From a virus: DNA of 32,460 nt. Each line of letters starts with the position of its first letter. Positions within the stretch are counted from its first letter, which is position 1. The stretch lies in the IMG/VR virus record IMGVR_UViG_3300046167_000584, positions 1 through 32,460 of that record; one strand, written 5' to 3'. A model generated the notes under the pieces. It worked only from the letters and a program-made list of their open reading frames with translations. It had not been told where the DNA came from and ran no database searches. Of this stretch, positions 11,832-32,383 are shown piece after piece. A program made the translations under genes and the position numbers.

Positions 11832-12292
11832 TGGCTTACGTGCAAGCAATTTCAGCAGGGCTTTCTATAGCTAGTGGGATTATGGGAAGCCGTAGCAAGC
11901 GCAAGGCCGCAAGGCGCGCAAGGCAGGAAGCTGCGCGTCAAGCTAATGAAATACTTTTGCAAATAGGCATGATGGAAGAGCGTGCTGGACAAGAGCATCT
12001 TGATATGCAGGAACAGTTGCAGGAGATGGAAAGTTACAATGTTGCGGCAGCTGCATATGCAGGACGAACAGACAGAAGCTTAGAGGCAATCAGAAAAGCC
12101 GGGCGTGAAAAATACGGCAGAAATATTGACCGTCTTCGCGCTGGCGTTGATCGTGAGCGTGAGTCCATAAAAAGAGAGGCTGAGGCTGTTAGGCGATCAG
12201 GCGCGTCTGCGGCGGCGGCGTATAAATCTGAAGCGCGAGCAAGTTTGCTTGATACTGCTTTACGAGCAGCTGACTACTATAGAAAGACGTAA
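11831..12292 (+). CDS. Internal virion protein (T7 gp14-like)
   Basis: This 153-residue protein has an N-terminal hydrophobic segment (AISAGLSIASGIMGS) followed by a long Arg/Ala/Glu-rich helix, the design of gp14-type internal core proteins that are ejected first and insert in the outer membrane. The order (nozzle, then this, then two much larger proteins) matches T7 gp12-gp14-gp15-gp16. The call rests on size, composition and order rather than on a strict motif. Confidence 0.8.
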   Translation: MAYVQAISAGLSIASGIMGSRSKRKAARRARQEAARQANEILLQIGMMEERAGQEHLDMQEQLQEMESYNVAAAAYAGRTDRSLEAIRKAGREKYGRNIDRLRAGVDRERESIKREAEAVRRSGASAAAAYKSEARASLLDTALRAADYYRKT

Positions 12293-12295
12293 GTT

Positions 12296-14359
12296 ATGGC
12301 TGAGTTAAAAAGACCTGTTGCAGGACAATCTTACAAAACACCTAGAATTGGTGTTGTAAATGTTAGAACTGGTTCTGACAGAGCAGCAGCAGCAAAAGGC
12401 GATTTTTATAAAACAGTTTCAGATGCAGGCTTTCGTGTTGCAGCCGCTCTTTCTCAGTCTGCTGGGGAAGAGTATGGAAAAGAAGCTGTAACGCGCGACT
12501 CTGAAACTGGAGAAATTACTGTTAAAGAACTTCCCAATCAACTCTTAATGGGTGGAGCAGGGACAAGTGCCGCTTTAAAACAAATGGCAGCGCAGTATGA
12601 AATAAAAGAAACAATTAACTTAAAGAACGCTGCTGTTGACTTAAGCCTTGAATCAAAGGGCGACCCAGAGATTTTCAAAGAACTTTGGAGCAGTTATAGT
12701 TCTGAAAAAGAAGCACTTATTGCAGGCTCAAATGCCTCGTTGTTTTTAGAGGATTACAAAAACCTTTCAGCCCAATATGGCAGTGACACATACAACAACT
12801 TACGACTAAAAAAAGTTCAAGCTGCTAATGACTTGGCGGAATCTAATGCAAGGACTTTTATACAAGATGCTGCTAGGGGGGTTAATACCCTTATTTCTAA
12901 TGGGGGCATTTCCGAAGGGCGTGAGTTGGGCTTGCATGCGCTTGAGAGATTTAAATCCTCTGGCGTATCCCCAGATACTTACGCATCTGTTGACCGCGAG
13001 TTTATTCAAAACGAATCCGCTGCGATTATAAATTATGCTGTAAAAGCTAATGCAGCAAACAGTAGAGATTTAAAAAAGTTATCTTCTGAAGCAAGACTTC
13101 TTGGCTGGAGTGAGGAAAGTTTAAAAAAATTCCCACAGTTAAAAGAAATGCAAGCTGCTGATACGGAAACTTGGAATAAAATTTCAAGTAATTTGTCTGA
13201 GCTTTCTGGAAAAATTGCTTCGGAAGAAACTAAAATAAGAGAAGACCAAAATGCTGCAATGCGTTTTCAACTTGGTGTCTCAACGCCAGAAGATAGTGAT
13301 AAGATATTTAGGGAAGCACAACTTACTGGCCTTGAGTTTTTAGGAGACCCCGATTCTATAGAGTCTCGTGAGTTGATTGGACATGCAAATGAACAAGGTC
13401 AATATTCTACAAATCAAGTAAATTTATTTGAGGCTGTCGTTTCTGGGAAATCTGGTGCTGACTCCGTAGCTGTGCAAAATGCTATTACGTTTTTTGATAG
13501 AACAAAAGAACGAAGCACAACACGGGGCGTTGTAAAAACCAACAATGGCTTAGACCCTGTTACATACTCTCGAATGAGGTTTCTTTCTAACTGGCGCGCG
13601 TCTTATGGTAATGCCAGACTTCAAGAGGGCATTGATGTTATTAACGCCTCCATTTCAAATCCAGACCTTTTAGACAAGGTGAAAACAATAGGCGGAAGTG
13701 AAGTAGAGTTTCAAGATTCTGATAACTTTATGCAGTCAATTAAAAAACTGTCTGATAATATTCTTGATGACTATCCCCCCACTGTCCGCGAAAGACTTTA
13801 TCCAGTTGTTGCAGAACAGGTAAGGTTAAGCGATAGTTTGTCTGATGTTAAAAGTTCAACAAAAGAATATTTTGAAACAATATCAAGACCCTCTCAGTAT
13901 CTTTCAGAAGAAGAGGCTTCTATATATGCACCGGAATTGTTTTTTGAGAGAAGCAATCAATCAGCTTTGATTGAGGAGTCTCCAGAAGAGTTTGGTGATA
14001 CTTATATTGATTACTTTATCAATAAAGAGTTAATAGATCGAAACGGTTTATGGAAAGAAAACTTAGACATTAGACCTGACGAGGGAAATGTAAGGCTTGT
14101 TCCTATTGAAACAAAATCAGACCACAAACGAGCAATGTATTTTTTAGAAAATACTGAAACTGGTGAGTTCTTAACTCGATCAGATGGTAAGTATTTAGTG
14201 TTTGATACTGATATGGTTAAGCACAAGGCAACACAACTTCGTATGAAGCAAGTTAGAAAAATATCTAAGGCTCAAAAAGAGGCGGAAGCTGCCCAAGCTA
14301 GAGATGAGTTAGACTTTGAGCAGACTATTATTGGTAGGCAAATTGCACAGGGAATGTAA
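12296..14359 (+). CDS. Internal virion protein (T7 gp15-like)
   Basis: This encodes 687 residues, mostly predicted helix with high Lys, Glu, Ser and Asn and no membrane segment. The size and place between the gp14-like and the very large gp16-like proteins fit the gp15 core protein, which forms part of the ejection tube across the periplasm. The start ATG 12296 follows the previous stop by 3 bases; the stop overlaps the next gene as TAATG. Base composition from here to about 18050 appears more AT-rich than in the capsid and early genes. Confidence 0.82.
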   Translation: MAELKRPVAGQSYKTPRIGVVNVRTGSDRAAAAKGDFYKTVSDAGFRVAAALSQSAGEEYGKEAVTRDSETGEITVKELPNQLLMGGAGTSAALKQMAAQYEIKETINLKNAAVDLSLESKGDPEIFKELWSSYSSEKEALIAGSNASLFLEDYKNLSAQYGSDTYNNLRLKKVQAANDLAESNARTFIQDAARGVNTLISNGGISEGRELGLHALERFKSSGVSPDTYASVDREFIQNESAAIINYAVKANAANSRDLKKLSSEARLLGWSEESLKKFPQLKEMQAADTETWNKISSNLSELSGKIASEETKIREDQNAAMRFQLGVSTPEDSDKIFREAQLTGLEFLGDPDSIESRELIGHANEQGQYSTNQVNLFEAVVSGKSGADSVAVQNAITFFDRTKERSTTRGVVKTNNGLDPVTYSRMRFLSNWRASYGNARLQEGIDVINASISNPDLLDKVKTIGGSEVEFQDSDNFMQSIKKLSDNILDDYPPTVRERLYPVVAEQVRLSDSLSDVKSSTKEYFETISRPSQYLSEEEASIYAPELFFERSNQSALIEESPEEFGDTYIDYFINKELIDRNGLWKENLDIRPDEGNVRLVPIETKSDHKRAMYFLENTETGEFLTRSDGKYLVFDTDMVKHKATQLRMKQVRKISKAQKEAEAAQARDELDFEQTIIGRQIAQGM

Positions 14360-28201: not shown

Positions 28202-28738
28202 TCAGTTCGTATCAGTTTGTCCAGCATTTAATAGCCGTTCTTTTGCTTTTTCTGGTATGCGGCACAGCACCTTTGCCATGTGGCTGTTGCCCAGTTCTTT
28301 CTTGGTGCGTTCAATAGCTGCGTCACACTTCTCGATTGTCCAGCCTTGACTAGCCGGGTCGGCCTTTGATGTAGAGGGACGGTCGCCTTCTTTTACAGGT
28401 TTGGACAGCCTGTCCCACGTTGCGTTAGTCTTGTTTTGCATTGCAACGTAATCGCCATTCACCTTCCCTGCCTGCTTGGCAACAAGGGAGGGGGTGAACC
28501 AGATGCGGAAGTCATGTGCTGCAACACACCTGTCCCACACCTTTGCAAGCAAGTCGTTGAACACATCTACATTAGGTATGTCGCTGCTCAACCGAGTGTT
28601 GATTGCTCGGCGTATCTCTTCGCCATACATCTTCTTTGCGGCATCGCTTTGCTTTGCATTGTTTGGCGGCAAATACATAACCGCCATCTTCTTTACAAAG
28701 TGTTCGTGTATTAGTGCTTCACGCTGTGCGAAGTCCAT
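28202..28738 (-). CDS. Hypothetical replication-region protein
   Basis: This 178-residue protein starts at ATG 28738 after AGGAGGTAAAC. It is largely helical, with a central VFNDLLAKVWDRCVAAHDFR, an IWFTPSLVAKQAG segment, a Lys/Ser/Thr linker at about 112-130 and a C-terminal helix. The domain-linker-domain form, and its place between the DnaA-like and exonuclease genes, would suit a replication adaptor, but no motif supports a specific function. It overlaps the DnaA-like gene by 20 bases. Confidence 0.7.
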   Translation of the reverse strand: MDFAQREALIHEHFVKKMAVMYLPPNNAKQSDAAKKMYGEEIRRAINTRLSSDIPNVDVFNDLLAKVWDRCVAAHDFRIWFTPSLVAKQAGKVNGDYVAMQNKTNATWDRLSKPVKEGDRPSTSKADPASQGWTIEKCDAAIERTKKELGNSHMAKVLCRIPEKAKERLLNAGQTDTN

Positions 28739-29126
28739 GTTTACCTCCTATTGAGTCTATCATTTTTTGAACCTCTATTTTTTGTTGCTTAACGCCTTCG
28801 ATTCGTTTCTTTTCTTCAACCACAGCAATCAAATGTATCTGTGATATTGCAAGACTTACATCTTCCTTTATCATTCTTTCTGCTGCAATTTTTTTGTAAG
28901 CATATAGAACTGTTGTGTGGTCTCGATCACACTTTCTTGCAATCTGAGGAAGGCTATATCCAGTGTAAATATAGCCCATGTAAAACAGAATATGTCTTGG
29001 TTTGACAAATTCATTTATTCGAGATTTGCCAAGTAATTGTTCTGGTTGAATCTTAAAATACTCGCACACTGCTTTTACTAAACACTTAAAAGCAAAGCGA
29101 TCAAGATTGATTTCGTCATCAAACAT
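28719..29126 (-). CDS. Stand-alone DnaA domain IV (replication initiator DNA-binding) protein
   Basis: This 135-residue protein matches the C-terminal DNA-binding domain of bacterial DnaA: FKIQPEQLLGKSR (25-36), VKPRHILFYMGY (41-52), YSLPQIARKCDRDHTTVLYA (57-76). RDHTTV with the following helix is the DnaA signature that reads the DnaA box. The ATPase and oligomerisation domains are absent; instead a charged helical tail of about 50 residues follows. It likely binds DnaA-box-like sites to recruit or mimic host DnaA at a phage origin, or to regulate promoters. ATG 29126 follows GGAGAAAGAAA. Confidence 0.88.
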   Translation of the reverse strand: MFDDEINLDRFAFKCLVKAVCEYFKIQPEQLLGKSRINEFVKPRHILFYMGYIYTGYSLPQIARKCDRDHTTVLYAYKKIAAERMIKEDVSLAISQIHLIAVVEEKKRIEGVKQQKIEVQKMIDSIGGKHGLRTA

Positions 29127-31191: not shown

Positions 31192-31219
31192 TTTATACAC
31201 GGGGTTATCCCCATGTCAA
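31192..31219 (-). promoter_or_regulatory. Strong sigma70-type early promoter
   Basis: On the minus strand, TTGACA (31219-31214, perfect -35) is followed by a 16-base spacer and TATAAA (31197-31192). The spacer has the near-palindrome GGGGATAACCCC. It reads into the leftward early block. Together with the lack of a phage RNA polymerase, it indicates use of the host enzyme with its housekeeping sigma factor. Confidence 0.8.
31193..31213 (+). promoter_or_regulatory. Two DnaA-box-like sequences overlapping the early promoter
   Basis: TTATACACG (31193-31201) and TTATCCCCA (31205-31213) each differ at one position from the DnaA box TTATNCACA. They point the same way, 12 bases apart, and cover the -10 box and spacer of the early promoter. 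Since the phage encodes a DnaA domain IV protein from this same operon, they may be an autoregulatory operator or part of an origin. One-mismatch matches are not rare in 32 kb; the placement is what matters. Confidence 0.45.
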
Positions 31220-31225
31220 GGCATG

Positions 31226-31256
31226 AAAAAGGGGCGACAGCGTGAGCCATCGCCCC
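31226..31256 (-). terminator. Rho-independent terminator, leftward
   Basis: On the minus strand, GGGGCGA (31256-31250) and TCGCCCC (31237-31231) form a 7-pair stem, extendable in the loop, followed by five T (31230-31226). It ends the short leftward unit made of the gene at 31266-31622 and insulates the early promoter just downstream. Confidence 0.85.
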
Positions 31257-31265
31257 AGAGGGTTA

Positions 31266-31622
31266 CTAAGCCAGTTTGTTCTTTGGCTTGTAGAGATAGT
31301 CTTTGTTGGTGCAGAACACCGAGTGTATCTCCATTGCTGCCTCAAGCTGTGCTGCCCAATCGGTAGCAGCTACGTGAAGTCGTTCAGACTGACGCTCGGC
31401 TCGCATCTTCTCGATGCTGGATGCGTTGTCATCTGACAGGACGGATACGCAATCTGCGATACCATTTAATGCTCGTCCTAATTCGTAATCAGCGAAGCTG
31501 CATTCGTTATAAGCTTTTCGTGATTTAGCATAATCATTAGATTGTGCATCAACGTTTGCAAGAATTACATCAGTCCAGTATGCGACTTGGGTTTGGGTTG
31601 CTTTAGCTTTTGTATTAGACAT
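31266..31622 (-). CDS. Hypothetical 118-residue protein, own leftward unit
   Basis: The ATG 31622 follows AAGGAGTAGATAG. The protein is helical, with NTKAKATQTQVAYWTDVI at the start, SFADYELGRALNGIADCV in the middle and a basic C-terminus. I do not recognise it. It is bounded by a terminator and preceded by the 130-nt inverted-repeat element in what would be its leader, so it seems to be a single-gene transcript apart from the main early operon, possibly the first gene expressed. Confidence 0.75.
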   Translation of the reverse strand: MSNTKAKATQTQVAYWTDVILANVDAQSNDYAKSRKAYNECSFADYELGRALNGIADCVSVLSDDNASSIEKMRAERQSERLHVAATDWAAQLEAAMEIHSVFCTNKDYLYKPKNKLA

Positions 31623-31678
31623 CTATCTACTCCTTATGTCTTGGTCAGGACTGTCCCGACCTTACAAAGACCACAAGA

Positions 31679-31808
31679 CAACATGGGGGAATGCCAGTCA
31701 AAGCAAGCGAAGCGCAGCCCAGACAACCTTTGTGTGAGGCCGTAGGCCGAGCCGACCGATAGGGAGGGGACAGAAAGTTGTCCCTTTGACTGGGAGGCGA
31801 CCATGTTG
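31679..31808. ncRNA. Candidate structured RNA or DNA element in divergent region
   Basis: CAACATGG (31679-31686) pairs with CCATGTTG (31801-31808) and CCAGTCAAAG (31694-31703) with CTTTGACTGG (31784-31793): 18 perfect pairs in two stems split by a 7 x 7 internal loop. Inside lie GGGACA-gaaagt-TGTCCC (31767-31784, sharing one base with the outer stem) and GGCC-GTA-GGCC (31738-31748). I do not recognise a known RNA family. It could be an RNA made from either strand, the leader of the 31266-31622 gene, or an origin or packaging structure. Confidence 0.55.
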
Positions 31809-31863
31809 CATTGTAGGGCTTTGTTGGTTGGGTCAGTCATGCAGCAAGACTTGGAGTAGGTAG

Positions 31864-31892
31864 ATAATGCAAAAGCGGCAACCCAGACGCAA
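31864..31892 (-). promoter_or_regulatory. Candidate leftward promoter upstream of structured element
   Basis: On the minus strand, TTGCGT (31892-31887) and CATTAT (31869-31864) stand 17 bases apart; the box design resembles that proposed before the capsid gene (TTGC.., CATTAT). Transcripts would run through the 130-nt element into the 31266-31622 gene. The -35 match is weak. Confidence 0.3.
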
Positions 31893-31902
31893 CGCATTGG
31901 AC

Positions 31903-31934
31903 TGCATTATTGCAAAGGGTGTTGCATAATTGCA
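31903..31934. repeat. Paired TGCA-(4 bp)-TGCA repeats, operator or iteron-like
   Basis: TGCATTATTGCA (31903-31914) and TGCATAATTGCA (31923-31934) start exactly 20 bases apart, two helical turns, on the same face of DNA. A related ATAATGCAAA lies at 31864-31873. They sit between the divergent transcription units, a typical place for a regulator that controls both directions or for origin repeats. The HTH protein at 26099-26314 is a possible binder. Confidence 0.5.
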
Positions 31935-31936
31935 GC

Positions 31937-31966
31937 TTGATTTTACTTGACGAACCCTCTTAAACT
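31937..31966 (+). promoter_or_regulatory. Weak candidate late promoter before small terminase
   Basis: TTGATT (31937-31942) and TAAACT (31961-31966) are 18 bases apart, each with four of six consensus bases. It is the best sigma70-like pair I see between the TGCA repeats and the terminase start at 31997. A late promoter must exist here or nearby; the precise site is uncertain. Confidence 0.25.
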
Positions 31967-31996
31967 CCGCTTAGCGGGTCAACGAATAGGTAAATT

Positions 31997-32383
31997 ATGG
32001 GTAACGCAGTTAAGAATCCTGAGACTGGTCTGACAGCCAAGCAAGAAGCGTTAGTTGAACACCTCGTAGCAAATGGCGGGACTGTGAAAGACGCCGCTCA
32101 TGTGGCTGGCTATGCTGATGGTGACTCGGGAAGGGTAAGTGCTTCCAAAGCTTTAGCCCTCCCCCATGTCCAGTCGTATATGATGGAACGCATGCGACAG
32201 GAGTTGGGCGTTAAAGCGACACTAGCCGCCCACCAAGTAGCCCGTCTCGCCATCAACGCCAAGTCTGAGTATGTCCAGCTGGAAGCAAGCCGAGATATAC
32301 TGGACAGGGCGGGTCTCAAAGCCCCTGAGAAGCATATGCACTTGCATGCAGGAGACATCAAGGTCGAGATTGACTTAGGCTAG
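31997..32383 (+). CDS. terS: Terminase small subunit (DNA-recognition)
   Basis: This complete copy has 128 residues. The N-terminal helix-turn-helix part reads GLTAKQEALVEHLVANGGT then KDAAHVAGYA, followed by SASKALALPHVQSYMMERM, typical of small terminases that bind the packaging site. The C-terminal part holds AAHQVARLAINAKSEYVQLE, then RDILDRAGLKAPEKH, and ends DIKVEIDLG. Across the terminal repeat it leads to the packaging and head genes, with large terminase about 2.7 kb on. ATG 31997 follows ATAGGTAAATT. Unusually, nine small genes and one unknown gene separate the two terminase subunits. Confidence 0.88.
   Translation: MGNAVKNPETGLTAKQEALVEHLVANGGTVKDAAHVAGYADGDSGRVSASKALALPHVQSYMMERMRQELGVKATLAAHQVARLAINAKSEYVQLEASRDILDRAGLKAPEKHMHLHAGDIKVEIDLG

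Follow-up and report, generated by a model that had tools for sequence, protein, structure and literature searches.

A putative plus-strand RNA rod mirroring the start of a leftward gene beside terS in phages

Upstream of the gene for the terminase small subunit (terS), a group of phages carries a long imperfect hairpin, which we term the rod, with one arm overlapping the start of a leftward gene and the other arm forming a mirror of it. Comparison of related sequences demonstrates that the rod exists, that it is linked to the gene and that pairing on the + strand is selected for. We infer that the molecule is RNA, the simplest carrier of + strand pairing, and a + strand RNA rod is on these grounds the probable form of the element. 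The whole statement, in which such a rod additionally works as a self-shielded antisense regulator, is put forward tentatively, and its proposal that the mirror arm controls the access of the antisense half to the mRNA is suggested less strongly than the RNA nature of the molecule.

Results

A nested 130-nt element is the tip of a long hairpin

The DNA analyzed, hereafter the window, comprises 32,460 bases and is the virus record of a podovirus-like phage, with genes for the large terminase subunit (from 2860), the portal (5458), a nozzle-like protein (9604), an M15 peptidase (24536) and a RecE-like exonuclease (27360). At 28719-29126 on the − strand, it also harbors a stand-alone match to the DnaA DNA-binding domain (PF08299, E 8.7e-21) without the ATPase part. 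The features surrounding the hairpin are the following.

31226..31256, − strand: intrinsic terminator belonging to the 118-aa gene, GGGGCGATGGCTCACGCTGTCGCCCC with a T run after it on the − strand (sequence)
31266..31622, − strand: mirrored leftward gene, 118 aa, predicted three-helix bundle (structure prediction, family clustering)
31517..31703, + strand: 5' rod arm, lying antisense to the leftward gene's 5' leader, ribosome-binding site, start codon and first ~105 nt (hairpin search, RNA fold)
31679..31808, + strand: the rod's tip with the nested stems of 8 and 10 bp (search, fold, compensatory changes in L018)
31704..31783, + strand: rod apex, containing small hairpins, GGCCGTAGGCC and GACAAC/GTTGTC (sequence, fold)
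31784..31954, + strand: 3' arm of the rod, a non-coding mirror of the gene start that retains GGAG...ATG, GGAGTAGGTAGATAATG (hairpin search, relatives' alignment)
31947..31982, + strand: conserved, promoter-like TTGACG-AACCCTCTTAAACTCCGC block before terS, with a −10 box that is weak in the window (relatives' alignment)
31997..32383, + strand: terminase small subunit, TerS (PHROG phrog_51 and phrog_2538; Pfam Terminase_2)

The original prediction had singled out 130 nt between the divergent genes, held together by an 8-bp stem (CAACATGG at 31679-31686 with CCATGTTG at 31801-31808) and a 10-bp stem (CCAGTCAAAG at 31694-31703 with CTTTGACTGG at 31784-31793). Both stems are present in the sequence, and a third, GACAAC/GTTGTC, is nested inside them. 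That such pairing exceeds chance was confirmed by a hairpin search restricted to Watson-Crick pairs, in which the element scored 15 as compared to at most 12 in 1000 dinucleotide shuffles. Folded as RNA, it was better than every shuffle on either strand (z −4.2 on + and −4.8 on −). The claim of a structured RNA was supported with respect to the RNA but not with respect to its boundaries, as the 130 nt are the mere tip of a hairpin of at least 438 nt that overlaps the leftward gene.

Using the same Watson-Crick-only approach (match +1, mismatch −1, gap −2), the full hairpin of about 440 nt was delineated at 31517-31954. It comprises 134 Watson-Crick pairs and scores 56, compared to a maximum of 22 among 300 shuffled versions of the segment and 17 for the next-best hairpin elsewhere in the window. 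A gapped, weaker extension to 31413-32049 exists and was left unused. As + strand RNA, the 438-nt rod folds with −204 kcal/mol (z −11.6). Its 3' arm terminates in the conserved TTGACG block before terS. Within this mirror arm, the retained GGAG and ATG open a 20-codon frame at 31852-31931 on the + strand (MQKRQPRRNALDCIIAKGVA).

The mirrored 118-aa gene lies to the left of the element as a single-gene leftward unit, with its terminator and then the promoter of a long leftward operon downstream. That promoter (31192-31219, − strand, TTGACA-16-TATAAA) carries a perfect 12-bp palindrome, GGGGTTATCCCC (31201-31212), between its boxes; the palindrome is operator-like in look, and its core recurs near the rod of locus L033. 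For the 118-aa protein, a three-helix bundle was predicted with a mean pLDDT of 87. Pfam, PHROG, PADLOC and PDB contained no informative relative, and fold searches returned generic helical matches only.

The rod recurs upstream of terS and accompanies the leftward gene

Viral contigs were scanned four times with TerS proteins, which after dereplication yielded 152 distinct terS-upstream regions. A rod, defined by a hairpin score above 19 within 1300 nt, a cut-off that 120 shuffles never exceeded, was detected in 119 of them, whereas control segments contained a comparable hairpin only once among 128 downstream and once among 110 upstream; the loci are related to one another, and these counts are therefore not independent. 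Rod sequences differ almost entirely from branch to branch. When longer spans were allowed, 17 loci reached scores of at least 80. The rod of L029 (1091 nt) has 379 Watson-Crick and 48 G.U pairs among 468 columns, and that of L067 (1166 nt) has 389 Watson-Crick pairs, 59 G.U pairs and not a single A.C. In both, the mirror spans the whole leftward gene, and in L029 the terminator as well. An 808-nt rod is also present in the isolate phage Hodr (OQ414635; host Pelagibacter HTCC1062), where it is predicted at about 11889-12696 of OQ414635.1, and the arrangement is therefore not an artefact of metagenome assembly. One further contig with gene, rod and TerS, L392, is labelled as a Euryarchaeota MAG and is probably a binned phage contig.

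Rod and leftward gene are tightly associated. Among the 33 rod-less loci, 31 lack the gene (Fisher p 3.5e-19), and both exceptions have borderline rods. In a fresh test that used the protein profile alone, all 14 distinct new loci carried rods (score 20-166), with TerS adjacent wherever the flanking DNA was long enough. Single linkage joined the leftward proteins of 70 of the 105 rod loci into one main family. Close TerS relatives of the window (L007-L014 and L019-L027, mostly 77-91% identity) are without gene and rod and represent a natural empty site. Locus L005, with a TerS 99% identical to that of the window, has a different leftward gene and a different rod (−507 to −239 from terS), indicating that the cassette is swapped as a block. 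In L044, L046, L061, L072 and many other loci, a conserved G-tract pair (AAGGGGGGGAACACAAGGGGGGG) directly follows the terS promoter, just upstream of terS; it is absent in the window's own branch.

The position of the rod is set relative to the gene start, which we called by a simple ribosome-binding-site rule. In the main family, the start codon and the innermost pair of the 5' arm are separated by 61-98 nt, with a median of 72, and across 66 main-family loci pairing peaks at 0.82 over the ribosome-binding site and start and declines past ~60 coding nt. Complementarity to the translation start of the target, a hallmark of cis-antisense RNAs, was thus found in these 66 loci. In a mixed set of about 31 loci, mostly with unrelated neighbor genes, the rods miss the gene start as called; their isolated mismatches (see below) lean the same way as in the main family (21:5). 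Two further groups of leftward proteins occupy the same site, one in L005, L030, L031, L171, L175 and L176 and another, likewise unrelated, in L049, L050, L065, L093, L095, L108, L113 and L166. Both have shorter rods that miss the called gene start and show little strand asymmetry in raw counts.

The mirror arms are non-coding, with stops in every frame, and some remain similar to the leftward protein if read through the stops. A protein-coding reading of the element is unsupported given these stops and the frame-breaking gaps in the alignment of relatives. The same gaps affect the 87-codon frame at 31634-31897 on the − strand, which had been suspected from the start to be spurious.

Pairing is under selection on the + strand

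Since G.T and A.C are each one transition away from a Watson-Crick pair, they are expected equally in double-stranded DNA or under neutral decay. We counted isolated mismatches, flanked by three Watson-Crick pairs on each side, as read on the + strand. In the main family, G.U outnumbered A.C by 168 to 20, with 46 loci leaning toward G.U and 1 toward A.C. This held for the longest rods (109:15) and the remaining main-family rods (59:5), and the excess was alike at codon positions 1, 2 and 3. The 14 new loci gave 19 G.U against 3 A.C as isolated mismatches, and in all of them G.T outnumbered A.C on the predicted strand. The window alone, with few informative mismatches, has 4 isolated G.U and 0 A.C. 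As G.U lies far above A.C on the + strand, pairing of this strand is under selection. A general mutational strand bias is argued against by the lack of an A.G/T.C skew, with 66 A.G/G.A and 59 T.C/C.T among the main-family isolated mismatches. A raw excess of A.G over T.C stems from internal loops and vanishes among isolated mismatches; only G.U versus A.C was used. A strand comparison of fold energies was likewise dropped, as the lower energy of the + strand, seen in 98 of 104 rods, was also a feature of 83 of 94 control regions.

Covariation points in the same direction. In comparisons of 36 alignable locus pairs, pairing was kept in 155 double changes and lost in 46, as opposed to 9 and 22 when the partner was slid by 3; single changes showed no G.U enrichment over the slid control. 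Between the window and L018, seven double changes preserve pairing. Three of them fall into the two stems of the original prediction (31684-31803, T-A to C-G; 31686-31801, G-C to A-T; 31702-31785, A-T to G-C). No Rfam 15 family matched the window or 20 relatives above the gathering cut-off, and a permissive scan gave chance hits only. Covariation, G.U tolerance on one strand and the lack of an Rfam match together support the suggestion of a new structured RNA. The other function that had been proposed, a replication origin, is without support, because the pairing constraint is limited to one strand and a DnaA-box cluster is absent: the window contains 2 DnaA-box matches (3.9 expected), neither near the element.

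Regarding transcription signals, no sigma70-like promoter for the + RNA stood out at the rod base, where real and scrambled matrices performed equally, or to the left of the gene, and none for the leftward gene stood out in the apex. Sigma70 sites seemed at first to cluster at the rod base, but this signal disappeared when scrambled matrices served as the control.

Discussion

We propose a non-coding RNA that would start within or past the leftward gene and run rightward, on the + strand, in the direction of terS. The 5' half of this RNA would be antisense to the beginning of the gene, covering its ribosome-binding site, start codon and initial codons, and in some phages would extend across the entire gene and the terminator. 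The 3' half, a non-coding mirror copy, would fold back on the 5' half to give one long rod, and this mirror arm may set whether and when the antisense half pairs with the mRNA. The rod could thereby regulate translation of the three-helix protein as an antisense RNA that shields itself. Such control or shielding of the mRNA is consistent with a rod that tracks the gene start, is missing without the gene and can reach across the gene's full length.

Alternatively, the rod could be the functional RNA itself, acting as a dsRNA-like decoy, trigger, scaffold or partner of the three-helix protein, with the gene overlap being secondary. This is the main alternative, though in our estimate a rather unlikely one. 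The two parts, gene and rod, are coupled in a fixed cassette, as a protein-RNA pair would be, some rods exceed 1 kb and are nearly fully paired (L029), and a 400-nt structured RNA from the terS-terL region of staphylococcal phages triggers CBASS (PMC10686824). However, the geometry is tied to the gene start, no common loop motif is apparent by eye, and the protein model has no RNA-binding relative. The hairpin might also act as + single-stranded DNA, for instance in lagging-strand priming or as a packaging signal beside terS. DNA hairpins, too, tolerate G.T better than A.C, the element abuts terS and the constraint concerns one strand only; yet a tailed dsDNA phage rarely exposes its + strand, 11 TerS loci close to the window (L007-L027) are entirely rod-less, and a DnaA-box cluster is lacking, making this reading improbable.

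Were the hairpin devoid of single-strand function, with inverted duplications of the gene arising often and being kept alike by template switching (quasipalindrome correction), the pseudogene-like mirror arms, the double changes, which such correction likewise yields, and the fast cassette turnover (L005, with another rod at 99% TerS identity) would be accounted for. Correction and neutral decay are, however, blind to G.T versus A.C, whereas the observed ratio is about 8:1 without an A.G versus T.C skew, and we consider this origin decidedly improbable. The window sequence alone suggested a leader hairpin of the leftward gene's own mRNA, hiding the ribosome-binding site, because the base of its core stem pairs GGAGTAGATAG-ATG with CTACCTACTCC. 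On that − strand A.C would be the tolerated mismatch, yet it is the disfavoured one (20 versus 168), leaving this reading, already disfavoured, with a very small chance of being correct.

Returning to the + strand RNA rod, we see a slightly less than even chance that in a widespread group of marine phages a mirror arm dedicated to one gene makes the antisense transcript of that gene fold on itself from the outset, as a rod of 0.3 to 1.2 kb constituting a new gene-control or RNA-protein element. RNA pairing would then drive the co-evolution of its halves, one of which also encodes a protein on the opposite strand. If true, some common ocean phages would use either a novel RNA-protein pair or a novel means by which an antisense transcript is controlled or shielded. 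The comparison supplies strand, geometry and partner gene, so that a single phage, Hodr, cultured on Pelagibacter HTCC1062, is enough to put the idea to the test. No account was found in phage biology of natural, nearly perfect hairpins reaching about 1.1 kb, with one-strand selection and an antisense arm over a coding gene, and the literature on pelagiphages, hairpins and antisense, covering open-access papers other than preprints, yielded no description of the arrangement.

Several known systems share single aspects with the rod. CopA/CopT and the RNAs of type I toxin-antitoxin systems are cis-antisense over the translation start of a small gene, as proposed for the rod, but are short and have no mirror arm dedicated to the target. 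Insect hpRNAs and plant microRNA precursors from inverted duplications are long hairpins made of a coding gene and its inverted copy; they form separate loci, whereas the gene itself makes up one arm of the rod, which belongs to a phage lacking RNA interference. Another is the cabRNA of staphylococcal phages, a phage RNA of ~400 nt with dsRNA regions beside the terminase genes (PMC10686824). In contrast to the rod, it lies inside terS/terL in the same reading direction and is neither the mirror of a divergent gene nor a long rod. GOLLD and ROOL are large structured bacterial or phage RNAs of obscure role (PMC12286853), which are multibranched and have conserved motifs, whereas the rod is single and long, without conserved sequence or Rfam match. 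Obelisks and delta-like RNA replicons also feature a rod RNA that encloses a small protein gene (PMC13096302, PMC10942263). These are circular RNA replicons, whereas the rod described here, in which no circularity or ribozymes were seen, is a fixed locus of DNA phages.
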